A program made the translations under genes and the position numbers. This document shows, in pieces, positions 2,992 to 64,000 of a DNA stretch of 64,000 nt (position 1 is the stretch's first letter; every line of letters starts with the position of its first letter). Source of the DNA: Mycobacterium sp. Z3061. Lineage in GTDB: Bacteria; Actinomycetota; Actinomycetes; Mycobacteriales; Mycobacteriaceae. The notes below the pieces were generated by a model. It saw nothing but the letters and a program-made list of their open reading frames with translations, was not told where the DNA came from and searched no databases. The stretch is taken from positions 4,278,001 through 4,342,000 of the forward strand of contig NZ_CP134062.1 of the NCBI RefSeq assembly GCF_031583025.1, in the 5' to 3' direction.

Positions 2992-2998
2992 AAGTACA

Positions 2999-6743: not shown

Positions 6744-6747
6744 ACCT

Positions 6748-7521: not shown

Positions 7522-7546
7522 GTCGGCTCCTGACTTTCGCTCACCA

Positions 7547-8590
7547 TCAATCTATGGCGCGGTCAGCCGTTTCTGCAGGGGTCGTTTGGCCTGAGTTTGC
7601 ACTGCCCTTCGTCCCCGGCGGACCGTCGCCCACCTCCACCGGCTCGCCGGTCAACTCGAAAAGCCGTTCCACGTCCGAGCGCTCGCATACCGCGGTTCCG
7701 GGCGTCAGCAGCATCGCCGCGCCGGCGGCGATCCCCAGGCGCACCGACTTGGCCAACGGCCACCCGCGGGTCAGACCGACGGCGATGGCCGCCACCATCG
7801 CGTCACCGGCACCCACGCCGCTGCCGGCCTCCATGGGCACCGCCGCAAAGCGCTGGCAGGTCTGCCGGGTGGCCAGCATCGCGCCCGACGAGCCCAACGA
7901 CACCACGACGACCTCCGCGCGGCCGCTGTCCACGAGTTCACGCGCGGCGACGATCTGTTCCGGCTCGGTGGCCAGTTCGCGCCCCACGCATTCGCGCAAC
8001 TCCCGCACGCTCGCCTTGAGCAGGAAGATCCCGGACGAGACACCGCGCAGTCCACCACCGGAGGTGTCCAGGACGAGCCGGGCGCCCACATCGCGCGCGA
8101 CGTCGGCCACCCGCTGATAGAAGTCGGCGGGAACGCCGGGCGGCAGGCTCCCGCTGGCCACCACGAAGTCGGCGGACCGCGCTGCCATCCGCAGCTCCTG
8201 CAGGCACCTGGCCTGTTCGGCCGGGGTCAGCACCGGTCCGGGCAAGACGAACCGGAACTGCCGTCCGGTGCTGGTCTCGTTGACGGTGAAGCTCTCCCGG
8301 GTGGCCCCGGCGATCGGGATCTCACCGAAGGGAACACCCGCATCGCTGAGCAATCTGGTCAACATTCCGCCGTGGGAGCCTCCCGCCGGCAGCACCGCGA
8401 ACGCCGACCCGCCGAGCACGTGGGCGATCCGCGCCACGTTCACACCGCCCCCACCCGGGTCGTAACGCGTTGCGCTGCAACGTAACTTGCTGGTGGGTTG
8501 CACCACCTCCACGCTGGTGGTGATGTCGAGCGCGGGATTCATCGTCAACGTGACGATCCGCGGTAGCCCCGGTGCGAAACCGGCGTGCAT
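7547..8590 (-). CDS. pfkB: PfkB-family sugar kinase (Rv2029c-type)
   Basis: 347 aa. It carries the two PfkB signatures: a glycine-rich N-terminal segment YDPGGGGVNVAR (43-54) and the C-terminal anion-hole/catalytic motif GSGVGAGDAMVAA with D263. Members phosphorylate fructose-6-phosphate, tagatose-6-phosphate or fructose-1-phosphate; the GGGGVN form resembles 6-phosphofructokinase/LacC types. ATG 8590 was preferred to upstream codons because the family start (PRIVTLTMNPALD) follows it directly and the upstream extension overlaps the previous gene. It lies 31 bp after the erythromycin-esterase fusion, within the Rv2030c-Rv2028c-like operon. Confidence 0.92.
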   Translation of the reverse strand: MHAGFAPGLPRIVTLTMNPALDITTSVEVVQPTSKLRCSATRYDPGGGGVNVARIAHVLGGSAFAVLPAGGSHGGMLTRLLSDAGVPFGEIPIAGATRESFTVNETSTGRQFRFVLPGPVLTPAEQARCLQELRMAARSADFVVASGSLPPGVPADFYQRVADVARDVGARLVLDTSGGGLRGVSSGIFLLKASVRELRECVGRELATEPEQIVAARELVDSGRAEVVVVSLGSSGAMLATRQTCQRFAAVPMEAGSGVGAGDAMVAAIAVGLTRGWPLAKSVRLGIAAGAAMLLTPGTAVCERSDVERLFELTGEPVEVGDGPPGTKGSANSGQTTPAETADRAID

Positions 8591-8621
8591 TGTGAACTCC
8601 GCTCGTCGGACTTTAGTGGGA

Positions 8622-49059: not shown

Positions 49060-49205
49060 GGGAGTGACATTAGGGCAGCTTCGGTGTGCCCGGCAGAGGA
49101 CGCGCGCGGATACCCCCAGCGGACCACCCAACCGGGGGATGAGCTGTGGGCGCCCCGATCAGACCATGTGACGAGGTCTTCTGCTGCCCATTGGAGGTAC
49201 CGCGC

Positions 49206-50279
49206 ATGCTCACCCACCACACGACGCTGGTGAAGTTCCTCATCGAGGAGCGACGCCGTCACCCCGATGCCAGCGGTGAACTGAACTCGTTGATCCTCGA
49301 CGTTGCCCTGGCCTGCAAGGCCATCTCGACCCGGGTGGCCCAGGGCGAGCTCGGTGGCGTGCTGGGCGCCGCTGACGTGGTGAATGTGCAGGGCGAAGTG
49401 CAGCAGAAGCTCGACGTGCTGGCCAACGACTACTTCCTGCGGGCCACCGAATGGGGCGGGCAGGTGGCCGGGATGGCCTCCGAAGAGCTGGCCGAGCCCT
49501 ACCAACTGCCGGCGCACTACCCGCGCGGAAAGTACCTGCTGATCTTCGACCCGCTCGATGGCTCGTCCAACATCGACGTGAATGTCTCAGTGGGAAGTAT
49601 CTTTTCGATTCTGCGTGCTCCCGAGCCGGGTGTCGACCCGGCCGTCGAGGACTTTCTGCAGCCCGGCTCACAGCAGGTGTGTGCGGGTTATGCGATCTAC
49701 GGCCCGTCGACCATGCTGGTGCTCACGGTGGGCACCGGCGTGCACGCGTTCACGTTGGACCCGGCGCTGGGTGAATTCATTCTGACCCGTGCTGACATCC
49801 GGATTCCGAGCACGACTGGCGAATTCGCGATAAACGCGTCGAACCGGCGGTTCTGGGAGCCGGCGGTGCAGCGTTACATCGACGAATGCCTGGCGGGCCG
49901 CACGGGGCCGCGTGGCAAGGACTTCAACATGCGCTGGGTCGCATCGCTGGTCGCCGAGACGCATCGGATCCTGACCCGCGGCGGGGTGTTCCTCTACCCG
50001 CGCGACGCCAAGGACCCGGCCAAGCCGGGACGCCTGCGACTGCTGTACGAGGCCAACCCCATCGCGTTTCTGGTCGAGCAGGCCGGCGGCCTGGCCAGCA
50101 CGGGGCGTGCGCGGCTGATGGACGTGGTTCCGACCGGATTGCATCAGCGGGTGCCGTTGATATTCGGCGCGGCCGACGAGGTCGAGCTGATCGAGGAATA
50201 CCACCGCAAAGACTATGTCCGGCCGTCCAGCTCGCCGCTGTACGGCGTGCGGGGCCTATACCGCGTCGTGGCCGGCTGA
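49206..50279 (+). CDS. fbp: Class I fructose-1,6-bisphosphatase
   Basis: 357 aa from ATG 49206 with GGAGG 8 bp upstream. Class I signatures: metal-site EEL (ASEELAEP), [10 protein letters not shown], and the sugar-binding region [48 protein letters not shown]. It converts fructose-1,6-bisphosphate to fructose-6-phosphate. Mycobacteria normally rely on the class II enzyme GlpX for gluconeogenesis, so an additional class I enzyme 20 bp ahead of a phosphoribulokinase gene points to a Calvin-cycle operon. Confidence 0.95.
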
Positions 50280-50298
50280 GCCGGAAGGAGTACAGCAC

Positions 50299-51186
50299 AT
50301 GTCACGCCTGCACCCGATCATTTCCGTCACCGGCTCTTCGGGAGCCGGAACCACCTCCGTCATGCGGACTTTCGACCAGATCTTCCGCCGGGAAGACATC
50401 AATGTGGCGTTCGTCGAGGGCGACAGCTTTCACCGGTATGACCGGGTGGCGATGAAGGCGGCGATCGCCGACGCCCATGCCCGCGGTGACCATACCTTCA
50501 GCCACTTCGGACCGGAGGCGAATCTCTTCGAGGAGTTGCAGGACCTCTTTGCGACCTACGGTGAGACCGGAACCGGCAAGGTGCGCCGCTACCTGCACGA
50601 CGAGAAGGAAGCCGAGCCGTTCGGGCAGCAGCCCGGCACCTTCACCCCGTGGGAAGAGATCCCCGAGGACACCGACATGTTGTTCTATGAGGGACTGCAC
50701 GGCGCGATCGTCACCGACGAGGTCGATGTCGCCGCACATGCCGACCTGCGGATCGGCGTGGTGCCGGTGATCAACCTGGAGTGGATCCAGAAGTTGCACC
50801 GCGACAAGGTGTCCCGCGGCTACACCTCTGAGGCGGTGACCGACACCATCCTGCGCCGGATGCCCGACTACGTGAACTACATGTGCACCCAGTTCTCGCA
50901 CACCGACGTCAACTTTCAGCGGGTGCCGGTGGTGGACACGTCCAACCCGTTCATCGCCCGGTCCATCCCGACCGCCGACGAATCGATGCTGATCATCCGC
51001 TTTCGCGACCCCCACGGTATCGATTTTCCGTATCTGCTTGCCATGCTTCATGATTCGTTCATGTCACGCCCCAACACCATCGTGTGCCCGGGCGGCAAGA
51101 TGGATCTGGCCATGCAGCTGATCTTCACCCCGATGGTGTTGCGGCTGCTCGAGCGTCGCCGGGCGCTGTTGGCGGCGGCGCGCTAG
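50299..51186 (+). CDS. prk: Phosphoribulokinase (class I)
   Basis: 295 aa from ATG 50299, with GGAAGGAG upstream. P-loop TGSSGAGTTSV (11-21), the ribulose-5-phosphate site VEGDSFHRYDR (39-49), GPEANLFEELQDLF, and HGAIVTDEVD. Length and HRYDR match the roughly 290-aa octameric proteobacterial-type enzyme. It phosphorylates ribulose-5-phosphate to ribulose-1,5-bisphosphate, whose main known use is RuBisCO. It follows fbp by 19 bp; no RuBisCO genes lie in this window. Confidence 0.95.
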   Translation: MSRLHPIISVTGSSGAGTTSVMRTFDQIFRREDINVAFVEGDSFHRYDRVAMKAAIADAHARGDHTFSHFGPEANLFEELQDLFATYGETGTGKVRRYLHDEKEAEPFGQQPGTFTPWEEIPEDTDMLFYEGLHGAIVTDEVDVAAHADLRIGVVPVINLEWIQKLHRDKVSRGYTSEAVTDTILRRMPDYVNYMCTQFSHTDVNFQRVPVVDTSNPFIARSIPTADESMLIIRFRDPHGIDFPYLLAMLHDSFMSRPNTIVCPGGKMDLAMQLIFTPMVLRLLERRRALLAAAR

Positions 51187-51266
51187 CACTGGCGGGGGTC
51201 GGCGCGGCGCTGTCAGTCACATCAGTCACAGCCGTCCCTGCCGGAGTCGACCCACTCTGTTACGAA

Positions 51267-51334
51267 ACGTGATAGCGCATCCGATATCACGTTTCTGACG
51301 GCATTGTGCCTCGCATTTCCGATACTGAAGTGAC
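51267..51334. repeat. Dispersed intergenic repeat, copy B
   Basis: Gapless match to 32702-32769: inverted repeat ACGTGATA...TATCACGT (51267-51292) then a TGCCTCGCATT core. It separates the convergent phosphoribulokinase and nuoM-like genes. Confidence 0.75.
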
Positions 51335-51350
51335 GGATGTGACTATGCGG

Positions 51351-52802
51351 CTACTTGCCGGCGACCACGTGTGCGATCGCCGGGTCGATCACATCCAGCG
51401 CCGGCTTCGGGTACACCCCCAGCACGATCAGCATCGCCAGCAACGGCACCACGACACTGAGCTCCCGGGGCACCAGGTCGCGCACCGCGTCTCTCCTGGG
51501 GCCCGTCATGATCCGCTGGTAGAGCCAGAGAATGTAGACCGCGGACAGGACCAGTCCGGTCGCGGCCAGCACGGCGACAACCGGATAGCGGCTGAAAGTG
51601 CCGATGAGCACCAGCAATTCGCTGACAAACGGCGCCAGGCCGGGCAGCGCCAGCGACGCCATGCCGGCGACCAGGAAGGTCCCGGCCAGCACCGGCGCGA
51701 CCTGCTGCACCCCGCCATAGTCGGCGATCAGCCGGGTTCCCCGGCGTGACACCAGGAACCCGGCGATGAGGAACAGCGCGGCGGTGGCCAGCCCGTGATT
51801 GACCATGTAGAGCGTGGCGCCGGACTGGCCTTGGCTCGTCATCGCGAAGATGCCCAGCACGATGAAGCCGAAGTGGCTTATCGAGGTGTAGGCGATCACG
51901 CGCATGATGTCGCTCTGCCCGATCGCCACCAGGGCGCCGTAGATGATTGCGACCACGGCCAGCGCGATCACGAACGGCCGGAACAGGACCGCGCTGTCGG
52001 GAAAGAGTCGCACGCAGTACCGCAGCATCCCGAACGTGCCGATCTTGTCGACGACGGCCATCATCAGCACTGCGGTCACCGGCGTCGACTCCGCGGCCAC
52101 CGCGGGCAGCCAGGTGTGCAGCGGCCACAGCGGCGCCTTGACGGCGAACGCGAGCAGGAACCCGAGAAACAGCAGATGCACGACGTCCGGATCGGCCGTC
52201 ATGTCACCCGACGACATCCCGGCGGCGATGGCGCGCGAATCGAACGTTCCGAAGATCAGATTCAGACCGATCAACGCGACCAGCATCAACAGTCCACCGG
52301 AAAGGTTGTACAGCAGGAACTTCAGCGCCGCCCGCGGCGCCCCGGCTCCCCCGTACCGGCCGATGAGGAAGTACATCGGAATCAGCATGGCCTCGAAGAA
52401 CACGAAGAAAAGCAGCACATCCAACGCCACCAGAGCGACCAGCATCATCGACTCGACGACCAGCATCAGCGCCAGGTAGCCGCTGGGCCGGCCGGCGTCA
52501 TTCCAGCCGGCAAGCAGCAGCAGGGGCATCAGGACAGTTGTCAACAAGATGAGCACCAGTGCGACGCCGTCGATCCCGACGGTGTAGCCGGCATCGAATG
52601 ACCTTATCCAGGACTGATTTTCGACGAACTGGTACTGCGGGTCCGCCGGATCGAAACCCGCCACCAGCACACCCACGATCACCAGTACCCCGGCCGAGAC
52701 GCCGAGGGCGGTGCACTTGGCAGCCAGCGGCCGGCCGGCGGGCACCGCCGCCACCATCATCGCTCCGGCCAGCGGCGCCAACCATAATGCGGTCAAGATC
52801 AT
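51351..52802 (-). CDS. NuoM/MrpD-type proton-translocating antiporter-like subunit
   Basis: 483 aa, about 13-14 hydrophobic segments. The complex I NuoM residues for proton transfer are present: glutamate in [14 protein letters not shown], lysine in [14 protein letters not shown], and the [15 protein letters not shown] segment. PE/PF01059-type amino-terminal part is short compared with mycobacterial NuoM (about 550 aa). It overlaps NuoL by ATGA and is the last gene of the minus-strand set that begins with hucM. No other complex I peripheral subunit (NuoB-G, I) or NuoH, A, J, N is present nearby, so it is not part of a standard nuo operon. Confidence 0.9.
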
Positions 52803-54667
52803 GCCGAACCCACCAACGCGACGCTCAGCAGCAACGCGGCCGCTCCGAAGAAGACCGTCAACGCGTACGACCGGGCGAACCCGGTCTGCATCCGCCGGAC
52901 ACCGGTCGAGGCCGTACCGATCAGCCGGGCTACGCCCTCCACGACACCGTCGATGCCCGCCCGGTCCACCTCGACCATCGCCCGCGACAGGCGCAGGCCC
53001 GGCCGCATGAACGCCGCCTCGTTGACGCTATCGCCGAACAGGTCATGGCGCGCGGCGATCACCGCGCCCGAGGCCCATTCCGAAGCGATCCTCCGCACCG
53101 GCCGGGCGACGTAGGTACGGACGGCGACCAGGATGCCGGCGACCACCACGGTCAGGGTCAGCGCGGTTAGCGCCCCTCCGGACATGGCGTGCTGTGGCTC
53201 CGCGGCGTCGGTGGGGTTCGTGACGGGTTGCAGCCAGCGTTGCAAGGTGCCACCCACGGCCAGTGCCGCCCCGCCGCCCAGCGAACCGAGGGCCAACACC
53301 AGCATCGGCGCGGTCATGACGGCCGGGGCTTCGTGCGGATGAGCGCCGGGCTGCCAACGCTTTTCACCGAAGAAGGTCATGACCATGACCCGGGTCATGT
53401 AGAAGGCGGTGATGCCGGCGCCGACCAGTGTCACCGCGCCGAGCGCCCAATGGGTGGCGAAGGCGGCCTCGATGATGGCGTCTTTGGAAAAGAAGCCGGC
53501 GAATGGCGGCACCCCGATGATCGCCAGATAGCCGAGCCCGAAGGTCGCGAACGTGATCGGCATGGCCGTGCGCAGACCGCCGTAGCGGCGCATGTCGGTC
53601 TCGTCGTTCATGCCGTGCATCACCGATCCGGCCCCCAGGAACAGTCCGGCTTTGAAGAACCCGTGCGTCAACAGGTGCATGATCGCCACTGCATATCCCG
53701 CCGGCCCCAGGCCGGCGGCCAGCACCATGTAGCCAATCTGCGACATTGTCGATGCGGCCAGGGCCTTCTTGATGTCGTCCTTGGCGCAGCCGATGATTGC
53801 TCCGACCAGCAGGGTGACCGCCCCGACGACCACCACCGCCGTCCGTGCGGTGGGCGACTGGTTGAACAACGGGCCGGAACGCACGATCAGATACACCCCG
53901 GCGGTGACCATGGTGGCCGCGTGGATCAGCGCGCTGACCGGAGTGGGGCCCTCCATCGCGTCGCCGAGCCAGGACTGCAGGGGCACCTGCGCGCTCTTGC
54001 CGCAGGCGGCCAGCAACAGGGCCAAACCGATTGCGGTCACCGTGGCCTCGGACTCTCCCGGTGCACGGGGGAAAACCCCTGCGTAGGAGAGCGTTCCAAG
54101 TTGGGTGAACATGATCATCAGGGCCAGCGCCAGTCCGACGTCGCCTACCCGGTTGACGATGAAAGCCTTCTTGGCCGCGGTCGCGGCCGCAGGCTTGTGT
54201 GACCAGAAACCGATCAGCAGATAGGACGCCAAACCCACGCCCTCCCAGCCGAAGTACAACCCGAGATAGTTGTCGGCCAGCACCAGCAGCAGCATCGCGG
54301 CCACGAACAGGTTGAGGTAGCCGAAGAAACGACGGCGTCCGGGGTCCTTGCACATATAGCCGATCGAGTACACGTGGATCAATGCGCCCACACCGGTGAT
54401 CAACAACACGAAACACGCGCTCAGGGCGTCGAGCTGCAGCCCGAAGTCGACCTGCAGCGAGGGCACCCAGGTGAACAGCGTTTCGTGCATGACCCGGTCG
54501 GGCGCCGCGCGCCGCGACAGGTCGACGAAAAGTATTGCGCCGCAGCAGAAAGAGGCCGCGACCATCGCACATGCCAGCAGATGTCCCCATGCGTCGACAC
54601 ATCGCCCACCCAGTAACAGCACCGCCGCACCGGCGAGCGGCAGCGCGATCAACCACCACACGGCCAC
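52799..54667 (-). CDS. NuoL/MrpA-type proton-translocating antiporter-like subunit
   Basis: 622 aa from GTG 54667 (GTG 54661 alternative). NuoL core: [106 protein letters not shown]. The key glutamate (GWEG) and lysines are kept. The C-terminal part includes the lateral-helix region and a last TM. Starts 5 bp after the short NuoK-like ORF. Expected to move protons or Na+ across the plasma membrane when coupled to a redox module; the partner is not defined. Confidence 0.92.
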
Positions 54668-54672
54668 CGCGC

Positions 54673-54780
54673 TCAGTCCCTCAGTTTGGCGAAGACGGCG
54701 ATGGCCAACTCGACCAGCACCTCGCACCCGTACGCGCCGGCGATGGCCACCACGACCATGATCACAACGGAGAAGTTCAC
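54673..54780 (-). CDS. Short membrane ORF resembling the C-terminal helix of NuoK
   Basis: 35 codons from GTG 54780: [20 protein letters not shown] then [15 protein letters not shown]. The CE-x4-LAI-x3-F pattern mimics the last transmembrane helix of NuoK (AAAE-x4-LAL). An in-frame stop lies shortly upstream, so the first two NuoK helices are absent. It ends 5 bp before nuoL, exactly where nuoK sits in complex I operons. Either a decayed nuoK or a genuine one-helix subunit. Confidence 0.4.
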
Positions 54781-54856
54781 ACCGGATAGCCTGCGCGATG
54801 CGATGGATCGCCTTCACCCCGATTCGGGGGAATTGCAAGGTGAATGGGATACGGGC

Positions 54857-55690
54857 TCAGCCCAATCCCACCAGGCCCGGATCAAACGTCGCCCGCGCTG
54901 TCACCGAAGTGGCGGCCGCCGCAACCACGACGCCGGCGTCGGCTTCATGGCCTTTGGGGAAGACGATTTCGGCGCTGTCCGGCCCGTCGCGGTGCGCCAT
55001 CAGCCAGTCGTAGAGCAGCCAGTCCACCGCACAGGTGACGGCCAGCGGGTCGGCCTCCGCGCGCTGCGCCGACGCGACGACCGACCGCAAAGCTTCCAGA
55101 TGCTCCTTGCGGGCGGCATCCTTGTTCACCCCCGAGCTGTCGAACATGAGCATCGACAGCGTCAGCGGAAAACGTTGTCCCGCTTCGGTTCGCACCACCC
55201 ACCGGCCACCCAGCCAGGGGCGGTCCGGATCCACCTGCTGCAGCTCGCCGAATCCGCCCACCACGCCGAGTGTCGGCTCGTCGAGTTGGCCGTCAAGGGG
55301 CGCCGGGCCCAGCAGGCCGAGCGGCTGGCGGGCGCAGATGGAGAACAGGGCGGCCGTCCCGATGATCTTCCCGGCCCGCAGGTCAGGCGCCACACCGGTC
55401 GATTCGATGGCCGCGGCGTACTCGAAGCACAGCCGGTCCAGGGTGCGGTGCAGGTCGACCAGATCGTCGCGCTCGTCAGCGTCCGCGGGACCTCTGCCGC
55501 CGCCCAGTATCTCGCCGAACCGCTCCGCGGCGATGATCAACGCGTCATCGAGGGCTTCCAGGTGGGTGGCGACCAGCCTGTCGGGCTCGTCGTCCCCGAC
55601 CACCAAGGCCTGCAGGGACGTGCGCCTGCCGGCCGGAGTGGCCCAGAAGAACCCGATCTGGCCGTCGGACTGGACGATTCGCGGTCTCAC
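54857..55690 (-). CDS. Unknown protein of the hydrogenase operon
   Basis: 277 aa, GTG start overlapping the NHL gene stop (GTGA). No transmembrane segment or cysteine-rich motif. Conserved-looking features: QVDPDRPWLGGRWVVRTEAGQRFPLTLSMLMFDS, and a long helical region DDALIIAAERFGEIL. One short GC hairpin (54817-54829) follows its stop. I do not recognise a family; coupling suggests it serves the hydrogenase or links it to the downstream NuoL/M-like genes. Confidence 0.75.
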   Translation of the reverse strand: MRPRIVQSDGQIGFFWATPAGRRTSLQALVVGDDEPDRLVATHLEALDDALIIAAERFGEILGGGRGPADADERDDLVDLHRTLDRLCFEYAAAIESTGVAPDLRAGKIIGTAALFSICARQPLGLLGPAPLDGQLDEPTLGVVGGFGELQQVDPDRPWLGGRWVVRTEAGQRFPLTLSMLMFDSSGVNKDAARKEHLEALRSVVASAQRAEADPLAVTCAVDWLLYDWLMAHRDGPDSAEIVFPKGHEADAGVVVAAAATSVTARATFDPGLVGLG

Positions 55691-56865
55691 CGTCGCCGCC
55701 AGATCACGACGCGGTTGTTGCCGGAGTCCGCGATCGCCAGCCGGTCACCGTGCAATGACAGACCGTAGGGCCAGCACAGCGTGTCGCGCTGCACCGACGT
55801 CCAGCGGTTCTCACCGTTGGCGCCGAATCCCGGCTGGGCGAGAACGTGATCGGCCCCACGTCCATCATCAGGAACATTGTCCCACAACAGGATTCGGTTG
55901 TTGGCCGTGTCGGCGACGGCCAGCCGGCCGTCGGCCAGGCCGATCGCATAGGGGAACCGGAACCGGTCACCGGTGTGGGGACCGTACGGCCATTCCTCCG
56001 CACTCGTGAAATCCGGTTGCCCAAGCAGGATGTCGGCGGGGCGGTCAATGTCGGGTGCGGGCGACCACCCCAGGATGCGGTGGTTTCCGGCGTCCGCGAT
56101 CAACAGCAGATCCTCGCGTCCCGCGATGTCATGTGGCCAGCGGAAGCTGGCGGGACCGGGCACCGCTCCCCTGTTCTCCTCGCGGTGGGACGCACTCGGC
56201 TGGCCCAGCACCACATCGGCCGACCGGCCCGGAGAGGGAATCCCGTTGCGCCAACCGAGCACCCGTCGATTGCCGGTGTCGGCGACCCAGAAGGTGTCGC
56301 CGATGATCGCGATGCCGAACGGCCAGTAGAAGGACGAGGCGGAGCATTCGGTGCCGGCATTGGGCTCCACGGCGGACGCGTCGGCTTGCCCGAGGACGAC
56401 GTCCGGTGCGACGTCGTTGGCCTGCGGGACGCTGTCCCAGATCAGGATTCGATGGTGCCAGGCATCGGCGACGATGAGCCGCCCGTCGTGGACCAGCACG
56501 CCGGTGGGCAGGTTCATGCCGCGTTCGGGTCCCCGGCCGCCGGCCGCCCTGCCTTCGGTCTCACCGTCCGGTTGGCCCAGCACCACATCGGCCGGTTGCT
56601 CGTCGTCGGAGGGGATTCCGTGCCATATCAGCACGCGGTGATTGCCGGAGTCCGCAACCACCAGGTGCTCGTCGCCCAGGAACACACCGCGAGGTGAATA
56701 CATCCACGCCATCGTGGGCTTGGCCGCCGGAAGGCTCAGGCCGCCGGGTGCGGGTGCGCCCAGCCACACCTCCGGTGACCACCCGCCGGTGAGGTCGGTG
56801 GTGGCGACGGGATCAACGCGCGGTGGTAGTGCGGCGATATTGTGCCGGACGGTGTAGCGGCTCAT
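55687..56865 (-). CDS. NHL-repeat beta-propeller protein
   Basis: 392 aa built of about six repeats, each ending in a form of VADSGNHRVLIW (for example LVVADSGNHRVLIW, LIVADAWHHRILIW, FWVADTGNRRVLGW, LLIADAGNHRILGW, LAVADTANNRILLW, LAIADSGNNRVVIW) and separated by DVVLGQPD-type strands. No signal peptide, hence cytoplasmic. Propellers of this kind act as protein-binding scaffolds. The start overlaps the NifU-Rieske stop by 4 bp; NHL genes accompany group 2a hydrogenases in mycobacteria, as I recall. Confidence 0.88.
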   Translation of the reverse strand: MSRYTVRHNIAALPPRVDPVATTDLTGGWSPEVWLGAPAPGGLSLPAAKPTMAWMYSPRGVFLGDEHLVVADSGNHRVLIWHGIPSDDEQPADVVLGQPDGETEGRAAGGRGPERGMNLPTGVLVHDGRLIVADAWHHRILIWDSVPQANDVAPDVVLGQADASAVEPNAGTECSASSFYWPFGIAIIGDTFWVADTGNRRVLGWRNGIPSPGRSADVVLGQPSASHREENRGAVPGPASFRWPHDIAGREDLLLIADAGNHRILGWSPAPDIDRPADILLGQPDFTSAEEWPYGPHTGDRFRFPYAIGLADGRLAVADTANNRILLWDNVPDDGRGADHVLAQPGFGANGENRWTSVQRDTLCWPYGLSLHGDRLAIADSGNNRVVIWRRR

Positions 56866-57731
56866 CCGCGCACTCGGACCCAGACGTCTCCGTTGTCAAT
56901 CCGTAGCGGCAGTTGCTCGAGCTGCGCCCCGGGCGCGCTGAGGCATTCTCCCGAGGAGGCGTCGTAGCAGAAACCGTGCCACGGGCAGGTGAGGGTGCCG
57001 TTGTCCAGGTCGAGGATCGCATTGTCCAAAGGCATTGCCTCATGGGCACATTCATTGCGGTAAGCCGACAGCCGGTGCTCGACGCTGATCACCAGAACGT
57101 CCGCACTCTCGCCGGCGTCGGTGGTAAGGCTGCGCACGGTCAGGTCGCCGTCGGCCACGTCGGCCGCCGGTCCCAGCCTGGCCCAGCCGTCCCGGGCCGG
57201 ACCGATGCGCAGCGCCTCCAGCGGGATCAGCGTCGGTGACGGCTCATTGGGCAGCACCTCGACGGCGGTGATCGATGGCACGCCCTCGACCAGTGCCTCC
57301 TGCACCAGGTTGCGCAGTGTCACCGATGACATCGAGCAGGCGTTGCAGGCTCCTTCCAGCCGCACGTATGCCGTACCGTCCTCGACGCGAACCAGGGTGA
57401 CATCGCCTCCGTGGCTTTGCAGTTGGGGGCGCACGCCGACCAGCACCCGGTTGGCGTGGGTGACCGGGTCCGGCCGGATGATCTCGTGCAACGACAGCAG
57501 CAGGTGCACCACCGGGTCGTCCACCAACTCGAACAGCACCGCCCGCGCCCCGTCGTCCTCACGCATCCGGCGCACGATGGTCACCAGACCGGCGCGGTGC
57601 ACCGCTTCCAGCGCGGACTTCAGCTCCTCGGCGACGGCGCGGGCTTTGGGGTCGAGGTCGGCCAGAGCCGCGACCGCGTCGTCGACCCGTTTGGCCAGTT
57701 CCTCCAGGCCGGGTTCGAACACGGTGGTCAT
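56862..57731 (-). CDS. hucE: NifU-like / Rieske fusion protein, hydrogenase-associated
   Basis: 289 aa. A helical N-terminal region (about 1-85), then a NifU C-terminal-type scaffold domain with C129-x2-C132 (GACNACSMSS), and a Rieske [2Fe-2S] domain with C228-x-H230 and C249-x2-H252 (CAHEAMP, CPWHGFCYD). It could insert Fe-S clusters or carry electrons from the hydrogenase to the respiratory chain. I associate this architecture with the product called HucE, an assignment from memory. Overlaps the TPR gene stop and NHL gene start, both by 4 bp. Confidence 0.85.
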   Translation of the reverse strand: MTTVFEPGLEELAKRVDDAVAALADLDPKARAVAEELKSALEAVHRAGLVTIVRRMREDDGARAVLFELVDDPVVHLLLSLHEIIRPDPVTHANRVLVGVRPQLQSHGGDVTLVRVEDGTAYVRLEGACNACSMSSVTLRNLVQEALVEGVPSITAVEVLPNEPSPTLIPLEALRIGPARDGWARLGPAADVADGDLTVRSLTTDAGESADVLVISVEHRLSAYRNECAHEAMPLDNAILDLDNGTLTCPWHGFCYDASSGECLSAPGAQLEQLPLRIDNGDVWVRVRG

Positions 57732-58969
57732 CGTGTATCCCCGGTGCGCGACAGCGCGACCTGTCGGGCGATCTCGTCCAGCACGCCGCGCACGGCCCGC
57801 ACGGAGTCGTCGTCCTGCTGTTCCTCGAACAGGAACCGGGCCTCATACAGCTTGGCCTTGGCCTGGTCGAAGATTCCCAGGTGAGCCAGCGCGTTGCCCT
57901 GGTTCGCCAACACCCTGGCCCGGCCCATCGGGTCGGTCTCCCGGCCCCGTGCGGCGAGCACGCCTTCGTAGAGTTCCACTGCCTCCATGAGGTTTTCGGC
58001 CTGGTGCTTCGACGGCGTGTAGACCAGGGAGTTGGCCAGATTCAGTTGAACGCTGGCCCACTGCTCGGGATACTGCTCGCGGGTGTAGACCTTCAGGGCG
58101 GAGCGCAGCGATTGTGCCGCCACACCGAGGCGCAGTTGTCCGGAGGCCTCCACCATCGGCATGGTGAGGTAGGCGGTCGCGAGGTTGGCGTGCGCAGAGG
58201 CCCACAGCAGCGGCGCCTCTTCCCGCAGCACCAACTGCAGCGTGGAGTGATAGTGCGGAATCGCCTGGGCGAGCAGGCCCGGATTGTCCTGGGCGCGTTC
58301 GTGAATGATCCCTGCGACGGTGAGGTGCAGCTCGGCGCGCGCGACACGCAGGCCCTCGGCGCCGTCGAGAAGCCGTAGCGCCCGCTCGAGATGCTGTTGG
58401 GCCGACGGGTCGCGGAGGTCGCGGCAGATCGATCCGGCCGCCGCGATCATCGTGCCCTCCAGACACCGCGACACCGTCGCGGCGGCCTCCGCGGCGCGCT
58501 CCAGCAGCGCCCGGGCCTTCAGCGGATTGTCCTCGGCCAGAGCCTGACTCGCCTGCGCGGACAGGGTGACGGCGGCCAGTTCACCGGTGGTCCCGTCGGC
58601 GTCGGGCGGGGTGTCCCGGTGACCGACGGTGAACAGCACCAGGTCGACCAGCACTCCGAACTCCCCCAGGTCAGCGCGCAACGTGTCGGTGTCGACGCCC
58701 TCGGGGCGCAGCACGAACCGGTTGTAGCGGGAGACAGGATCGTCGTCGGTGAGGTTTTCCAGTGCGGCGTCGACGTCGCCGGCATGCGCAAGCTCAAGCG
58801 CGCGAAGGTCTTCCGGCCACACCTCCGGCTCATTACCGTCCAGCAGCGCTGCTCGCACATCGTCGGCACCCGGCGGAACCAAGAGATAGCCCAGCGGCAG
58901 CGGGAAGGCGCCGAGCGGTTGCGGCCGGGTAGCGAGCGCTCCCCGGGCCAGTTCAGGCGCTGTGGTCAT
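57728..58969 (-). CDS. TPR-repeat protein of the hydrogenase operon
   Basis: 413 aa from ATG 58969; a GTG two codons earlier is also possible. The C-terminal two thirds are paired helices of TPR type (for example SAHANLATAYLTMPMVEAS, ASVQLNLANSLVYTPSKHQA, RARVLANQGNALAHLGIFDQA). The N-terminal about 100 residues contain PLGAFPLPLGYLLVPPGADDV and match no motif I know. A likely scaffold or maturation factor. It lies 5 bp after the 94-aa gene. Confidence 0.85.
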   Translation of the reverse strand: MTTAPELARGALATRPQPLGAFPLPLGYLLVPPGADDVRAALLDGNEPEVWPEDLRALELAHAGDVDAALENLTDDDPVSRYNRFVLRPEGVDTDTLRADLGEFGVLVDLVLFTVGHRDTPPDADGTTGELAAVTLSAQASQALAEDNPLKARALLERAAEAAATVSRCLEGTMIAAAGSICRDLRDPSAQQHLERALRLLDGAEGLRVARAELHLTVAGIIHERAQDNPGLLAQAIPHYHSTLQLVLREEAPLLWASAHANLATAYLTMPMVEASGQLRLGVAAQSLRSALKVYTREQYPEQWASVQLNLANSLVYTPSKHQAENLMEAVELYEGVLAARGRETDPMGRARVLANQGNALAHLGIFDQAKAKLYEARFLFEEQQDDDSVRAVRGVLDEIARQVALSRTGDTR

Positions 58970-58974
58970 GACGT

Positions 58975-59259
58975 TCACCCATTGATCGGTCCTCGGATAT
59001 TGCGCTCGGCGGCGCGCTTGATCAGGCTCGCCGAGATCTCGGCGCGCCGCTTGGTGTGGTGGGTCTCGATGCGCCGGCGAACCACTCCATCGGCGAACAC
59101 CACGACGATTTCCACGGCCCACCGGCCGTGGTCCTCCACGACTACGGTCTGAACGTCCAGCGCCTCGTCGGCCGCGCTGTCGGCGCGCACCACCGTCGGC
59201 GGGCGCTCCGGCTCCTCCTGTTGCCCCCCCACGGTCGGACGCTCAGCCATCAGAATCAC
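58975..59259 (-). CDS. Small hydrogenase-operon protein
   Basis: 94 aa from GTG 59259 (ATG 59250 alternative), the GTG overlapping the protease stop. Acidic N terminus, then a single compact beta-rich segment VQTVVVEDHGRWAVEIVVVFADGVVRRRIETHHTKRRAE and an amphipathic helix ISASLIKRAAERN. No cysteines. Function unknown; tight coupling to the protease and TPR genes suggests a maturation or assembly factor. Confidence 0.75.
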   Translation of the reverse strand: MILMAERPTVGGQQEEPERPPTVVRADSAADEALDVQTVVVEDHGRWAVEIVVVFADGVVRRRIETHHTKRRAEISASLIKRAAERNIRGPING

Positions 59260-60116
59260 CCCGGCGGCTCCGGCGCGTCACGCAGTTCTTCACCCAAGGG
59301 AATCCGCAGCGACTTCTGTGCATCGTCCCAGAATGCACCAGTCACGCCGACCCTGCCTTCGATCACTTCGCGGATGAGCAGCGAGCGGTCGCCGGCGGGG
59401 TTGCGCTGTTTGAGCAGCAATCCGCCGCTGCGCGGGCCCCGCAGCGGGATCAACCAGAGATCACCGTCGCGGACCACGGCGACCACCGCGTCGGACGGAA
59501 ACCGGCTGGCGGCCAGCGACGCGTCCAGACGCAGGTAGCCGTCGGCGGTGAACTCGACGGTGACGGAAGTGTCGGGTACCGGCCGCAGGTCGGCGAGATA
59601 CTCGGCCTCGATCCGGTCGATGACGAGTTCCATTGCCGCCTCCACTGATTCGGACAGCTCGGCGCCGAGTTCCACGCCGGCGACCTCGATCAGGTAGACG
59701 GATATGTCCGTCGGACAGTCGTCGCCCAGCGCCCAGCGGGCGAAGGCGATGGCGTGATCCCACCGGAACGAGTGGGTGTGCAGGCCCTGCAGGGGCGGCA
59801 GGTCCGCCAGTTCTTCGCCGGGCACCTTGAAGACGGTGCCGGGCGCCGAGCCGGTGGCCGCGGCGTCGACGATCACCACTCGCCGGGCGCCGCGCATCTG
59901 GAATGCCACATCCATGCCCGCGGTGCCGCCGTCGACCAGCTTCGCCCCGTCCGGAACCCCGCGCTCCCACAAGTGCCGGACCAGCACCGGCCCGACGCCG
60001 TCGTCACCGCGCAGCAGGTTCCCGCAGCCGACCACCAGGACGTCATACCCGGGCGGGGCCAGGTCCTGGGTGTCGTCGGGGGCGCCTAGTCCGCAGTCGT
60101 AAGCAGTCAGGATCAC
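59256..60116 (-). CDS. hucD: Hydrogenase maturation endopeptidase with C-terminal extension
   Basis: 286 aa from GTG 60116, overlapping the hucL stop (GTGA). Residues about 24-165 are a HyaD/HybD-family protease: GCGNLLRGDDG (30-40, with nickel-binding acidic residues), VDGGTAGMD, and GLHTHSFRWDHA (His ligand). It would cut the 19-residue C-terminal tail of the large subunit after H516. Residues about 170-286 form an extra domain (VEFTADGYLRLDASLAASRFP, DGDLWLIPLRGPRSGGLLLKQ) not found in ordinary 150-165-aa proteases. Name by position and family. Confidence 0.88.
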   Translation of the reverse strand: MILTAYDCGLGAPDDTQDLAPPGYDVLVVGCGNLLRGDDGVGPVLVRHLWERGVPDGAKLVDGGTAGMDVAFQMRGARRVVIVDAAATGSAPGTVFKVPGEELADLPPLQGLHTHSFRWDHAIAFARWALGDDCPTDISVYLIEVAGVELGAELSESVEAAMELVIDRIEAEYLADLRPVPDTSVTVEFTADGYLRLDASLAASRFPSDAVVAVVRDGDLWLIPLRGPRSGGLLLKQRNPAGDRSLLIREVIEGRVGVTGAFWDDAQKSLRIPLGEELRDAPEPPG

Positions 60117-61720
60117 ACCATCCCGTTGATGACGAACTTGGACAGTTCTCGTCCAGTCTTGCCGTCGTAGGCGTGCACGGTGCACACCAGGCACGAGTCG
60201 AAGCTGCGCGCCACGTGACCGAGTTCCACCGGGTCCTCCGGGTCGACGATCGGCGAGCCCACCAGAGCGCTCTCGATCGGGCCGAGCACCTGCGAGCTGT
60301 CCCGCGGCCCGATGTTCCAGGCCGTCGGTGTCACCACCTGGTAGTTCTTGATCTTGTTGTCTTCCAGCACAATCCAGTCCGACAGCGCACCGCGGGCAGC
60401 CTCGGTGGAACCGAAACCCATGCCCTCGGCGTGCTCGACGGGCTTGGAGTAGAAGCTCTCCTTGAGGTTCAGCTGGTCCAGCCACTCACGGGTCCACTTG
60501 TAGTACTTCGGCCCTTCGTGCATGCGGGCGAGCTGGCGGACCATGACGCTGGGCCCGATCTTGTTGTACATGTCGACGAACAGCGGGTCGTTGTCCTGGT
60601 GCGCGGCGGCGTTGGGGCCGCCGGCGGCCATCCGGCGTGCCAGCGGGCCGGCCTCCAGAGGGAGGTTGCCCAGGTCGCCGACCGCGTAGCGGGGAGATTT
60701 GGCCCAGCTGTACTTGCCTTGCTTGCGGCCCTGTTCAGGGTCGATCGGGATGGTCTCGCCTTCGAACGGGTGCAGCGGCCGGCTGCCCTCGTAGAACGAG
60801 TGCGTGACGTCCTCGCGGACGTTGGCCTGGTCGAACTCGTGCCACTGACCTTTGGCGTACACGCCGGACCGGCCGATCAGCGCGGCGTTGCGCCCGGCGA
60901 TGGTGGGGTTCTCATACAGCGAGGGGTCGAAGTAGGTGCCGGTGGAGATGTAGTTGCCCACGCCGGCGCCGTACTTGTCCAGGCCGACGTCCAGGCAGTA
61001 GCGGATGAAAAACCCGCAGTCGCTGTTGTACTGCGACTCGTTCTCGTCCACCCAGGCCAGCACGTCCTCCCAGGTCTTGTTCTCCAGCCAGCGGTCGATG
61101 CTGCAGCCCAGCCAGCGGCCCTCCAGCCAGTTGTCCTTCCAGTGCTCGAGAATCGAGATGGAGCGGGTGACGTCGGACAGCGTGGGCGCGCACATCACCC
61201 CGCCGGGCACCATGAAGCTGGAGTGCGGCCACTGGCCGCCGAAGATCGCATAAACTTCGACGGGCTTGTTCGAAAGCACGACGCCCGGTTGATAACTCGT
61301 GCCGACATAGGGAGCGAAGCGGCGCACCGCCTCGTCGTACAGCTTGGACTTGGCGTAGTTCTTGTTGGTCAGGTCGATGGCGAACAGCGCGTAGAAGTAA
61401 CGCGGAATGGACTGCAGCGTTTCGCACGCCTGACAGATGTTGCGCACCAGGGTTGCGTTGGGCGGCATGTGCGTTCGCCATGCGGTGTCCAGCGCGTACG
61501 CAGATTTGTACAGGTGGCTGCCACCGCAGATGCCGCAGATGCGCGGACAGACGATGAGGCCGGCCTGCGGGTCCTTGCCCCGCAGAATGATTTCGAAGCC
61601 GCGGAACATCGCCGCCTCGGTCCAGGCCGAGGTGACGACACCGTCTTCGACGGTGACGCGGACGTCGAGGTCTCCCTCGACACGGCCCAGCGGGCTGACA
61701 TACAGGTCGAGCGCGGTCAT
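60113..61720 (-). CDS. hucL: [NiFe]-hydrogenase large subunit, group 2a (Huc type)
   Basis: 535 aa from ATG 61720 with GGGAGG upstream. Nickel-iron ligands: R-I-C62-G-I-C65-GGSH near the N terminus and D508-S-C510-LV-C513-TV-H516 near the C terminus. A 19-residue tail (AYDGKTGRELSKFVINGMV) follows H516 and is the expected cleavage peptide. Other conserved segments: MPPNATLVRNICQACE and PHSSFMVPGGV. The catalytic subunit oxidises H2 to protons. Similarity to M. smegmatis HucL (MSMEG_2263), an oxygen-insensitive enzyme able to use atmospheric H2, is from memory. Confidence 0.94.
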   Translation of the reverse strand: MTALDLYVSPLGRVEGDLDVRVTVEDGVVTSAWTEAAMFRGFEIILRGKDPQAGLIVCPRICGICGGSHLYKSAYALDTAWRTHMPPNATLVRNICQACETLQSIPRYFYALFAIDLTNKNYAKSKLYDEAVRRFAPYVGTSYQPGVVLSNKPVEVYAIFGGQWPHSSFMVPGGVMCAPTLSDVTRSISILEHWKDNWLEGRWLGCSIDRWLENKTWEDVLAWVDENESQYNSDCGFFIRYCLDVGLDKYGAGVGNYISTGTYFDPSLYENPTIAGRNAALIGRSGVYAKGQWHEFDQANVREDVTHSFYEGSRPLHPFEGETIPIDPEQGRKQGKYSWAKSPRYAVGDLGNLPLEAGPLARRMAAGGPNAAAHQDNDPLFVDMYNKIGPSVMVRQLARMHEGPKYYKWTREWLDQLNLKESFYSKPVEHAEGMGFGSTEAARGALSDWIVLEDNKIKNYQVVTPTAWNIGPRDSSQVLGPIESALVGSPIVDPEDPVELGHVARSFDSCLVCTVHAYDGKTGRELSKFVINGMV

Positions 61721-61772
61721 GAATCCTCCCAAATGATTTCGTGCACTACCAGGGCTGTTGGCGTGCTGGTCG

Positions 61773-62744
61773 TCAGACCACGAACATGTCTTCCTTGGAC
61801 CATTGCGGGGCCGCGATCCGGGCGGCCGCGGCGTGTGCCATGTAGGTGAGGTGGTCCGAACCCTCGGGCACTTCCTTGGGGATCATGCCGCTGACCTTCT
61901 GGGTCTTGAACACGGTTCCCGGCGCCAGGTCGAAGTGCGGGAACTCCGGTTCGGTGCAGCCCAGGCAGGGCATGCCGGCCCGGGTCTTCGAGGACTGGCG
62001 GTTCCACAAGATGCGGTTGCACGGCGAGTGGGTCATCGGCCCGCGGCAGCCGAACTCGTAGAACAGGCAACCGGTGCGGGTGCCCTCGCCGAACGACATC
62101 GTGGACTGCTTGTACTCGAAGAATTGGACTCGGGTGCAACCGGTTTGGGTAAACGTCTTGAAGAACGTCTCGGGCCGGTGCAGTTCGTCGAGGGTGATGT
62201 CGCCGGCCCGGCCGGTGGCCAGCGCGACGATGATCTGAGTGATCCAGTCCGGGTGGGCGGGGCAACCCGGGATGTTGATCACCGGCAGGCCCATCTTGGA
62301 CCGGAAGTCCGGGCCCAGGAACCCGCCCTTCTCCCGCTTGTGGAACTGCAGGCCCGTGGACGCCGACGGGTTGGGTTCCATGGCCGGGATGCCGCCGAAG
62401 CAGGCGCAGTCACCGATGGCCACCACGATCTGGGCCGCGGCGGCCAGGTCGGTGACCCAGTCCTTCATCGCGCGGTCGGCGAACATGTCCATCCGGCCGG
62501 TGCCGTTGGGCGCCTCGATGACGGTGCCCTCGAACACGAAGATGTCCAGCGGACGTTCGCCTTTGGCGCAGTCCCAGAACACCTTCTGAGCGTTCTTCCC
62601 GAGTTCGAGGCCCAGCGACGGGTGCCATAACAGATCGAGCCCGAAATCGACGATCAGATCGACGACATTGGGCTCTTCGGCATTGAGGAATGACATGGTA
62701 TTGCCACTACACGCGCCGCCCTGAAACCATAAAACGGAAGCCAT
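61773..62744 (-). CDS. hucS: [NiFe]-hydrogenase small subunit, group 2a (Huc type)
   Basis: 323 aa. It opens FQGGACSGNTMSFLNA with the proximal-cluster cysteine, and has AIGDCACFGGIPA, INIPGCPAHPDW, and the C-terminal cluster-binding cysteines TGCLFYEFGCRGPMTHSPCN and GMPCLGC. No Tat signal peptide, as expected for cytoplasmic group 2a enzymes. It carries electrons from the Ni-Fe centre through three Fe-S clusters. Almost every motif agrees with what I remember of HucS (MSMEG_2262). A 52-bp spacer separates it from hucL. Confidence 0.94.
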   Translation of the reverse strand: MASVLWFQGGACSGNTMSFLNAEEPNVVDLIVDFGLDLLWHPSLGLELGKNAQKVFWDCAKGERPLDIFVFEGTVIEAPNGTGRMDMFADRAMKDWVTDLAAAAQIVVAIGDCACFGGIPAMEPNPSASTGLQFHKREKGGFLGPDFRSKMGLPVINIPGCPAHPDWITQIIVALATGRAGDITLDELHRPETFFKTFTQTGCTRVQFFEYKQSTMSFGEGTRTGCLFYEFGCRGPMTHSPCNRILWNRQSSKTRAGMPCLGCTEPEFPHFDLAPGTVFKTQKVSGMIPKEVPEGSDHLTYMAHAAAARIAAPQWSKEDMFVV

Positions 62745-62809
62745 AGGAACTCCTCTCGAATTGCGGCCGAGGGCGCGACCACGTTGATATTGGGCTGGAA
62801 AGTATTTTT

Positions 62810-63361
62810 TTATTTAGGCAATTGCCGGCCGAATGCCCGGGCTACCTGAATCAGGAATCCCAGGCCCCGGTTGATGTCTTTGTCCTTGCTGACCCGCCAC
62901 AGCCCGAACAGGCCCTTGGGGCCGCCCGGGTATGCGGCCGCCGCCGCCTTGCCTTCGACGAGCGCCTCCCCCAACTCGGCGAGGACATCGGCGGCCTGCG
63001 GGTCGACCAGCGGTGAATTGAGGATCTTGTTCAGCGTGGGCGCAGCGGCCACCAGCGCCGACGCCAGCGAGGCCAGAGTCGCCGCCAGCGCCTGCACGTC
63101 CACCGACCCCAACTCGGCCTTGACCTGGTCGAAGCCCGGCACGGTCAACGAGGCACCCCGGATCTCCCCGACGGCCGAGGCCACCGACTCGCTGATCTGG
63201 TCACCGCGTCGCACGAACCCGTCGAGGCCGGTCACCAGGATCGCCAACAGGTCGGCGTGGTCCAGCAGGCTGTTGAGCGACGCGGCGATCGCGGGGTCGT
63301 CAAGCCGGTCGCGCAGCTGGTCGCCCGGCGACAAGGCGACAACCTGACCGTTTGCCGACAT
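62810..63361 (-). CDS. hucM: HucM-type membrane-linking stalk protein
   Basis: 183 aa. Alternating helices rich in Ala/Leu (NSLLDHADLLAILVTGLDGFVRRGD, VDVQALAATLASLASALVAAAPTLNKIL) then a Gly/Pro hinge (PGGPKGLFGLWRV) and a basic amphipathic end (GLGFLIQVARAFGRQLPK). It belongs to the DUF1641-like group. In M. smegmatis HucM tetramerises into a tube that joins the Huc oligomer to the membrane and menaquinone. First gene of the operon with GGGAACCTCC-derived GGAGG before ATG 63361. A 65-bp AT-rich spacer follows. Confidence 0.85.
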   Translation of the reverse strand: MSANGQVVALSPGDQLRDRLDDPAIAASLNSLLDHADLLAILVTGLDGFVRRGDQISESVASAVGEIRGASLTVPGFDQVKAELGSVDVQALAATLASLASALVAAAPTLNKILNSPLVDPQAADVLAELGEALVEGKAAAAAYPGGPKGLFGLWRVSKDKDINRGLGFLIQVARAFGRQLPK

Positions 63362-63375
63362 GGGAACCTCCTAAG

Positions 63376-63403
63376 CGAATCGAGAGGGCTGCGTCCCGAT
63401 TCG
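63376..63403. promoter_or_regulatory. Inverted repeat at the huc promoter
   Basis: CGAATCG (63376-63382) and CGATTCG (63397-63403) form a perfect 7-bp inverted repeat separated by 14 bp, 15 bp upstream of hucM and within the 259-bp divergent gap to the AraC-type gene. A likely regulator binding site. A DosR-like sequence GGGACTGTGGCCTCG (63407-63421, 9 of 12 positions) adjoins it. The rest of the gap (63422-63620) shows no gene that I can support. Confidence 0.45.
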
Positions 63404-63620
63404 ACAGGGACTGTGGCCTCGATCACAAACTAGCCGCCGCTTCGGACTGTGCCTATCGCTTTCGCGCAGCAGCTGTCAGGATTGCGAACAGTTAAGCGCG
63501 TTGGCGCGCGCTGGCCGACCGAGAGGCTTGCATGATCGCCACCGATTCTTTAGTGAACGCCTCACGTTCACGGTGGCCACTGCCAGGGGATTTACCTGCC
63601 GGTTACCGGGGTTCGAAGCG

Positions 63621-64000
63621 ATGTCGCGGCTGACCCGACTCGGGTACATCGACGTCCGCCGGACCGCTCATCCGGTGCGCCGCAAGGTGCGCTCGCGCGG
63701 TGTCCCGCCGGCCTTGGCGGACAACGAGATCTTCTATACGGAAAACCCGACCGAGGCCGTGCGGCTGATGGCCAAGGCGTTGGCCCCGCTGTCTTTGCAT
63801 GTGGGTCCCGAGGACGTCGAGGGGTTTGCTGCGACGATGCACGGCGTGCGGCTACGCAACGTCAGCATGCTGTACCTCGACGTCCATGTGGCCGCGACCG
63901 TCGACATCCCGGCGTTGGGTCAGTACTTCGGCGTGCACATGCCGATGAACGGCCGCGCCCTGGTCGACCATCGTGGGCACAGCTTCGAGTCCAACACCAT
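63621..64000 (+). CDS. AraC-family regulator, N-terminal part (cut by window edge)
   Basis: At least 126 codons from ATG 63621 (GTG 63573 is in frame upstream); the gene runs off the right edge. The visible part reads MSRLTRLGYIDVRRTAHPVR, then LRNVSMLYLDVHVAATVDIPALGQYFGVHMPMNGRALVDHRGH, which is the sensory AraC-binding-like domain (AraC_binding_2) of regulators such as the RipA/VirS group. The C-terminal HTH lies outside. Divergent from hucM, so a candidate regulator of the hydrogenase operon. Confidence 0.65.
   Translation, partial: MSRLTRLGYIDVRRTAHPVRRKVRSRGVPPALADNEIFYTENPTEAVRLMAKALAPLSLHVGPEDVEGFAATMHGVRLRNVSMLYLDVHVAATVDIPALGQYFGVHMPMNGRALVDHRGHSFESNT

Follow-up and report, generated by a model that had tools for sequence, protein, structure and literature searches.

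A 64-kb window of the genome of Mycobacterium sp. Z3061, an M. gordonae-type strain, carries a minus-strand run (63361-51351) in which a huc hydrogenase operon is followed by a 35-codon NuoK-like open reading frame (ORF) and by genes for the complex I subunits NuoL and NuoM, here called nuoK', nuoL2 and nuoM2 (Table 1). This compact locus is almost certainly what remained after the deletion of a second complex I operon, nuo2, with nuoA to most of nuoK removed and nuoN lost. Because relatives hold a whole second complex I operon at the same spot, the nuoL-nuoM pair is regarded as a leftover and not as an addition. An earlier note on this DNA had described the pair as appended to huc, which has the direction of change wrong. 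Its view that NuoL, NuoM and the NuoK-like piece are real and huc-linked was borne out: coordinates, gaps and family cut-offs hold, and the same arrangement recurs in 11 distinct loci, which argues against chance. The whole explanation, in which a reduced island for H2 and CO2 use keeps a nuo2 deletion remnant whose two products would be swapped into the canonical complex I, is one that we consider evenly poised between right and wrong.

The distribution of nuo2 was followed in 148 genomes of the genus (numbered with a G) and around relatives of x277, a conserved huc-linked protein that borders nuo2; 86 such relatives were found and 80 named loci were kept. In relatives, nuo2 is a 14-gene operon (nuoA-N) located after x277 and before the genes for phosphoribulokinase (PRK) and fructose-bisphosphatase (FBPase). 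A hucL match (1e-50) was present in 42 of the 148 genomes, and ribulose bisphosphate carboxylase (RuBisCO) in 21, 20 of which also had hucL. The huc region was fetched and annotated in 41 of the 42 huc-positive genomes, that of G127 not being among them. The fetched stretches included x277 in 35 of the 41; those of G013, G039, G096, G032, G111 and G008 did not contain it. All 14 nuo2 genes were unbroken in G004, G012, G125 and G033, the last with hucL on a separate contig from x277, and G009 and G056 had matches to all 14 subunits after x277, some split as by frame breaks. In G013, G039, G096 and G144, nuo2 stood on the far side of PRK/FBPase and was incomplete through the fetched range or a contig edge. 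Contig ends held part of nuoA only in G043, and the end of nuoM with nuoN in G109. Genes of nuo2 that are split into two tblastn pieces, in G009, G056, G039 and G096, reflect either decay or sequencing error. Among the named loci, nuo2 followed x277 in 11 besides the compact ones, including M. litorale F4 and M. komossense, either whole within the flank or cut, and two of these showed part of nuoA only.

The compact form, nuoL and nuoM with or without nuoK', was found in six of the 41 annotated genomes (the window's own, G000, and G006, G047, G120, G110 and G031) and in eight of the 80 named loci (M. gordonae CTRI 14-8773, M. gordonae DSM 44160, the metagenome genome AWTP1-6, M. intermedium, M. 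ahvazicum, M. palustre, M. sherrisii and Mycobacterium sp. E1747). Three contigs are common to both sets, giving the 11 distinct compact loci, and at none of them did nuoN have a match. Another end point of decay is seen in Mycobacterium sp. SM1 (G083/L231), with nuoF and fragments of nuoE and nuoA near RuBisCO. A complete nuo2, a piece or a remnant was present in 19 of the 20 genomes with both huc and RuBisCO, and in the other, G041, the contigs break there; RuBisCO was present in all 18 genomes with a complete, partly seen or compact nuo2. No nuo2 was seen in the 21 annotated huc regions from the 22 genomes with huc and without RuBisCO, some of which lie on short contigs. Two NuoL matches (1e-150) were counted in 15 of the 148 genomes, all 15 with huc and RuBisCO; up to eight candidates per genome were scored, and interrupted genes can escape this count. 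Two genomes stand apart: G090, with huc and without RuBisCO, has a distant NuoE/F/G-like set, and G139 (C60:12397-13320), an assembly of 3.4 Mb in about 360 contigs, is the sole one of the 148 with RuBisCO and no hucL match.

A quick tree of HucE, the NHL-repeat protein and x277 was built from 73 of 83 loci, the other 10 having a protein missing or cut off. The 11 compact loci formed one clade (Shimodaira-Hasegawa-like approximate likelihood ratio test, SH-aLRT, 97), presumably one of slow growers, and the 11 loci with nuo2 were scattered, requiring seven changes. We infer from this an ancestral nuo2 with many losses and one reduction event, rather than several gains. NuoM2 from 14 of 16 nuo2 copies formed a single clade (98/89), outside which fell the copies of G004 and G009, the latter with a frame that seems broken. 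In the NuoL tree, from which G144 was left out as too short, the compact NuoL2 sequences formed a separate clade (100/100), and NuoL2 of complete loci paired with the canonical NuoL of the same genome in G012, G056, G009, G004 and G013 (starred support) and more weakly in G039 and G096. This resembles what repeated gene conversion of nuoL alone would give, NuoM2 staying mostly in its own clade, and conversion of this kind would hint that the two NuoL versions are interchangeable. The window's pair shares 66% (NuoL2) and 62% (NuoM2) identity with the canonical copies of its own genome, NuoM2 falls in the nuo2 clade and NuoL2 lies apart from its own canonical NuoL; the pair therefore did not arise as a recent, random duplicate of the main nuo operon. 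Such a duplicate, which the earlier note had named as counting against its idea, is not what the trees show.

Family and structure matches assign NuoL2 and NuoM2 to complex I, and not to Mrp, Dab or group 4 hydrogenase assemblies. Both proteins scored above the NCBIfam complex I cut-offs (NuoL2: NF005141, 774.5 against 556, and TIGR01974, 739 against 407.5; NuoM2: NF004500, 703.7 against 550, and TIGR01972, 522.4 against 263.8). The best PDB chains were 8e9g_L for NuoL2 (907 bits, against 218 for the best MrpA and 123 for DabB2) and 8e9g_M for NuoM2 (672 bits, against 108 for the best MrpD); we take entries 8e9g-8e9i to be M. smegmatis complex I. According to the alignment, NuoL2 also retains the extended C-terminal portion of NuoL that runs along M and N in complex I. 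The 35-residue ORF product is not a whole NuoK (99 residues) and corresponds to its last transmembrane helix. It was assigned by alignment, being too short for a similarity search to return; the G031 counterpart shows a 44% match to NuoK, and a NuoK-like tail is kept in the one from G047. The nuoK gene of relatives stops a few bases before nuoL, and the window's ORF sits at the same place. ORFs of this type, 35-54 codons long, are present in 10 of the 11 compact loci; in M. intermedium the nuoK piece is gone and an in-frame nuoL GTG stands at its former start. When all 14 nuo genes were looked for, the window held L, M and the NuoK piece only.

The 76-bp gap between x277 and nuoK' contains, in minus-strand reading, CCCCGAATCGGGG. 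Its exact palindromic 13-mer, CCCCGAWTCGGGG, occurs at a single place in the genome and precedes the remnant (nuoK'LM or nuoLM) in all 11 compact loci, eight times exactly and three times with one mismatch. Of 13 loci tested, 12 carried the pattern CCCC-N5-GGGG in the stretch from x277 to nuoA2; shuffles that preserve base composition only gave an expectation of 0.59, and loci were treated without correction for kinship (G033 was left out, its contig being that of L197). The 200 bases ahead of hucM contained the pattern in 0 of 14 loci. Other controls gave 1 of 12 before nuoF (0.36 expected), 0 of 12 before nuoH, 0 of 18 before hucE, 0 of 6 before PRK, 0 of 4 before FBPase, 0 of 1 before cbbL and none before this genome's canonical nuoA; the 3 of 10 before nuoL come, by distance, from compact loci. 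A palindrome flank, roughly ATCACCTGG..TATC, is common to many loci of the compact and nuoA2 sets, and in the nuoA2 loci GTAGACAT or a near variant, reminiscent of a -10 box, usually comes next. Since the palindrome is common to nuoA2 and compact loci, it is read as an inherited control element of nuo2 that the deletion probably joined to nuoK'LM.

The gap was also searched for transcription signals. A sigma-70 promoter scan of 51000-64000 gave no consensus site, and a terminator scan gave three sites against 4.9 in shuffles, none of them in the 54857-54667 gap. As RNA, the gap folds with no clear advantage over shuffles (z -0.48), and for this reason we take the palindrome to be a control element in DNA and not a terminator. 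The earlier note had held that a strong terminator and separate promoter in this interval, with uncorrelated expression, would speak against its reading; this objection applies in part, since a conserved element is present there, although neither a consensus promoter nor a terminator was found. It had also described the whole run as one uninterrupted set, and the gene order and gaps are as it described. One transcription unit does not follow, because the palindrome lies in the 76-bp gap: nuoK'LM may be expressed from a promoter of its own, separately from huc, and is not necessarily the tail of the huc operon.

Selection on the pair was assessed with the canonical copies of the same genomes as reference. 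The ratio of nonsynonymous to synonymous divergence (dN/dS; Nei-Gojobori method, NG86, seven pairs) was 0.135-0.207 for NuoL2 against 0.047-0.175 for canonical NuoL, and 0.060-0.185 for NuoM2 against 0.017-0.169 for canonical NuoM. Sites that are invariant in 22 copies from complete operons were kept in all six compact copies at 254 of 290 positions in NuoL and 180 of 206 in NuoM; for charged residues and histidine the figures were 39 of 45 and 24 of 26, respectively. The known Glu and Lys positions of helices 5, 7, 8 and 12 were placed in the alignment by eye from their sequence motifs. With the low dN/dS and the kept charged residues, NuoL2 and NuoM2 are read as still working: the sequences are under purifying selection, more loosely than the canonical copies, and still look useful to the cell.

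We propose that the complete island, with RuBisCO, huc, a dedicated nuo2 and PRK/FBPase, would serve growth on H2 and CO2. In this complete form Huc would hand electrons from H2 to menaquinone, and nuo2 would probably run in reverse on the proton-motive force, passing electrons from menaquinol to NAD+ and so making NADH for the Calvin cycle. In the ancestor of the compact clade, a deletion very probably brought the nuo2 control element up against the last NuoK helix, nuoL and nuoM. NuoL2 and NuoM2 could then dock on the ordinary complex I core as alternative distal pumps when the island is active, giving a hybrid complex I. By analogy with the cyanobacterial case below, the part of this proposal that has the pair replace NuoL/NuoM of ordinary complex I during H2-driven CO2 fixation is plausible, and we place it slightly on the doubtful side. 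A further extension, in which one core would give two versions of complex I by exchange of the distal pair, under control derived from nuo2, with reverse running on H2 from Huc for CO2 fixation and with the 35-54-residue NuoK helix as a microprotein of the hybrid, is tentative and more probably fails in some part than holds.

Several observations weigh against the swap and the history proposed for it. The closest pair of genomes has a dN/dS of 0.207 for NuoL2 against 0.047 for the canonical copy. When the canonical NuoL/NuoM of the same six genomes served as the yardstick for a normal copy, compact NuoL2 kept 259 and canonical NuoL 290 of 296 sites invariant in 16 other copies, and NuoM2 kept 182 against 206 of 213. 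Amino acid changes counted by column were 305 against 145 in NuoL (2.1-fold) and 220 against 90 in NuoM (2.4-fold). The nuo2 pair exceeds the canonical one in synonymous divergence too, and in 40-column blocks the excess of change in NuoM2 is general. In places nuo2 decays, as in M. intermedium without the NuoK piece and in Mycobacterium sp. SM1 with nuoF and fragments. The scatter of nuo2 loci, attributed above to one old gain and many losses, could also come from several gains, and the compact NuoL2 sequences do not group with canonical NuoL. The entry of NuoL2/NuoM2 into complex I is argued from sequence and analogy. The canonical operon elsewhere in the genome has open frames for 14 complex I subunits (named from gene order and sequence), and because its own NuoL and NuoM are among them, the swap is not forced.

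Other roles for the pair were weighed on the same evidence. NuoL2 and NuoM2 alone might form a two-subunit proton/cation antiporter, or a proton leak, and in this way keep the proton-motive force in balance while H2 is oxidized. The channel residues are kept, no further nuo2 subunit is left at the locus, and NuoL homologues work outside complex I in Mrp and DAB, DabB2 being likened to NuoL in the available text of one report (PMC13144422). This role is nevertheless fairly unlikely, given sequences that are near complex I and far from Mrp and Dab chains, the long C-terminal part that NuoL2 keeps, and scanned neighbors that include no DabA and no other Mrp-type gene. That the pair is a slowly decaying relic, still transcribed and of little function, is a little less probable again. 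It would account for the greater protein change and the smaller share of invariant sites kept than in the canonical copies, for the near loss of nuo2 in Mycobacterium sp. SM1 and for its absence from the 21 annotated huc regions without RuBisCO. It fits poorly with dN/dS of 0.06-0.21 over pairs with dS up to about 1.1, with frames open in six genomes, with matches at the remaining five compact loci that cover more than 80% of each protein and with a palindrome kept within one mismatch in all 11.

Very improbable is an arrangement in which NuoL2/NuoM2 bind Huc or HucE so that H2 oxidation pumps protons. The large and small subunits of Huc share distant ancestry with NuoD and NuoB, and huc linkage in the 11 compact loci would suit such a complex. 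The locus has no NuoH, A, J or N for coupling redox chemistry to antiporter subunits, and without coupling by NuoH, A, J, B and D the H2-driven pump raised in the earlier note is unlikely. Huc stands without linked L/M in the 21 annotated regions lacking RuBisCO, a separate conserved element lies between huc and L/M, and Huc, in the consulted part of its published description, reduces menaquinone within its own scaffold (PMC10017518).

The preferred reading, a distal pair exchanged on the complex I core, has its nearest counterpart in cyanobacteria, where the NDH-1M core combines with different NdhD/NdhF subunits (PMC9283085, as far as its available text goes). NDH-1L and NDH-1MS (NdhD3/F3) resemble the present case in that one complete core is accompanied by additional copies of the M- and L-type subunits, which are linked to carbon fixation; docking on a common core is argued here by analogy, and this genome has no ChpXY match. 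The earlier note's NDH-1MS-like device thus survives as a swap of distal subunits only. A CO2 hydration complex of NDH-1MS type was rejected, ChpXY (PF10216) being found in 0 of 1 genomes (the strain's own) with the control match in Synechococcus elongatus only. NuoL2 and NuoM2 share with complex I NuoL/NuoM their subfamilies, near full length, most charged residues and the L-M order, and differ in lacking A-J, most of K, and N as gene partners and in adjoining huc and Calvin-cycle genes; NuoM2 also falls in a separate clade.

The Mrp- or DAB-like device of the earlier note is not supported: bit scores strongly favor complex I, and the DabA match is elsewhere. DAB2 (DabA-DabB) is alike in having a NuoL-like membrane protein in a chemolithoautotroph; here the genome's one DabA match is not beside nuoL2 (G000:C1:6317312-6319714), and NuoL2 is far closer to complex I than to DabB2. 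In this genome, far from the huc locus, a NuoL-like gene stands beside that DabA match (G000:C1:6316056-6319714) and looks like a DAB inorganic carbon pump. An Mrp antiporter (MrpA/MrpD with C, E, F and G) was rejected as well, the scanned neighbors being huc and Calvin-cycle genes and the scores lying far under those for complex I. A group 4 energy-converting hydrogenase was rejected in turn, with no NuoH-, C- or I-like families among the run's ten proteins and a hydrogenase of Huc type.

The hydrogenase is of the Huc (group 2a) type, with hucM-hucS-hucL, HucE and the NHL-repeat protein all present; the hucM-hucS gap is 65 bp. In the portions of the literature available, Huc feeds menaquinone that is used by the bcc-aa3 oxidase (PMC10017518), the M. 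smegmatis huc operon is MSMEG_2261-2270 (PMC6883350), group 2a operons include hucS, hucE, NHL proteins and maturation factors (PMC7784904), and RuBisCO together with [NiFe] hydrogenase is known in Mycobacteriales (PMC12999727). The present operon is like that of M. smegmatis in hucM, S, L and HucE, with NHL-repeat and maturation genes common in group 2a operons (PMC7784904, available text), and differs in that nuo and Calvin-cycle genes adjoin huc. The term nuo had no match in the accessible text of four huc papers (PMC10017518, PMC6883350, PMC7784904 and PMC13098282), and a literature search, thin on subscription journals, returned no paper recognizable, from the text it made available, as describing a huc-linked nuo operon in mycobacteria.

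In this mycobacterial island, genes for a second complex I and for the Calvin cycle stand together with those of an atmospheric-H2-type hydrogenase, an arrangement that suggests a route to NADH from H2 via a hydrogenase that feeds only menaquinone. M. gordonae is capable of H2-dependent autotrophic growth, on which the literature search showed no paper. The compact form amounts to a natural experiment in which evolution kept only two of the antiporter-like pump subunits, and it makes exchange of the distal pumps of complex I testable outside cyanobacteria.

Table 1 Features of the huc-nuo run and its neighbors in the 64-kb window.
Feature	Coordinates	Strand	Basis
hucM, Huc membrane-associated subunit	62810..63361	-	DUF1641; 147 bits to 7uus chain Q
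hucS, hydrogenase small subunit	61773..62744	-	PF01058, PF14720
hucL, [NiFe] hydrogenase large subunit	60113..61720	-	PF00374; 1108-1110 bits to 7utd/7uus, 1110 to 7uus chain A
Hydrogenase maturation protease	59256..60110	-	PF01750; TIGR00072 above cut-off
94-residue ORF, kept in huc loci	58975..59259	-	no Pfam match
TPR-like huc accessory protein (our label)	57728..58975	-	no Pfam/NCBIfam match
hucE, NifU and Rieske domains	56862..57731	-	PF01106, PF00355
NHL-repeat protein typical of huc operons	55687..56865	-	PF01436
x277, 277-residue huc-linked conserved protein, borders nuo2	54857..55690	-	no Pfam/NCBIfam match
Palindrome CCCCGAWTCGGGG, likely inherited nuo2 control element	54817..54829	not applicable	conservation across compact loci
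nuoK', 35-codon NuoK remnant (last transmembrane helix)	54673..54780	-	alignment with relatives' NuoK
nuoL2, antiporter-like subunit L of huc-linked second complex I	52799..54667 (GTG start 54667)	-	NCBIfam and PDB matches, tree
nuoM2, antiporter-like subunit M of huc-linked second complex I	51351..52802	-	NCBIfam and PDB matches, tree
Phosphoribulokinase, convergent neighbor downstream	50215..51186	+	PF00485
Fructose-bisphosphatase	49146..50279	+	PF00316, PF18913
AraC-type regulator, 5' part only, continues past window end	63501..64000	+	family match

The neighborhood is read as a gene island that serves to fix CO2 with H2 as the driving force. Past huc, away from nuoL2-nuoM2 and partly outside the window, are AraC-type and LysR-type regulators, an AAA protein and the RuBisCO small and large subunits; the AAA gene, which we label cbbX, cbbS and cbbL lie 1.7-4.5 kb past the window end. 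A class I aldolase, a histidine kinase with its response regulator and a transketolase are also found on the RuBisCO side. Two named loci carry different genes after x277. In L158 (M. arenosum) these are NuoE/F/G-like, with a further hydrogenase large-subunit match that is distant (32%, covering 19% of the query), and they may encode an NAD-linked hydrogenase; in L154 (M. palauense) they lie on the opposite strand and are distantly NuoB/C/D/L-like, which might amount to a group 4 hydrogenase set.

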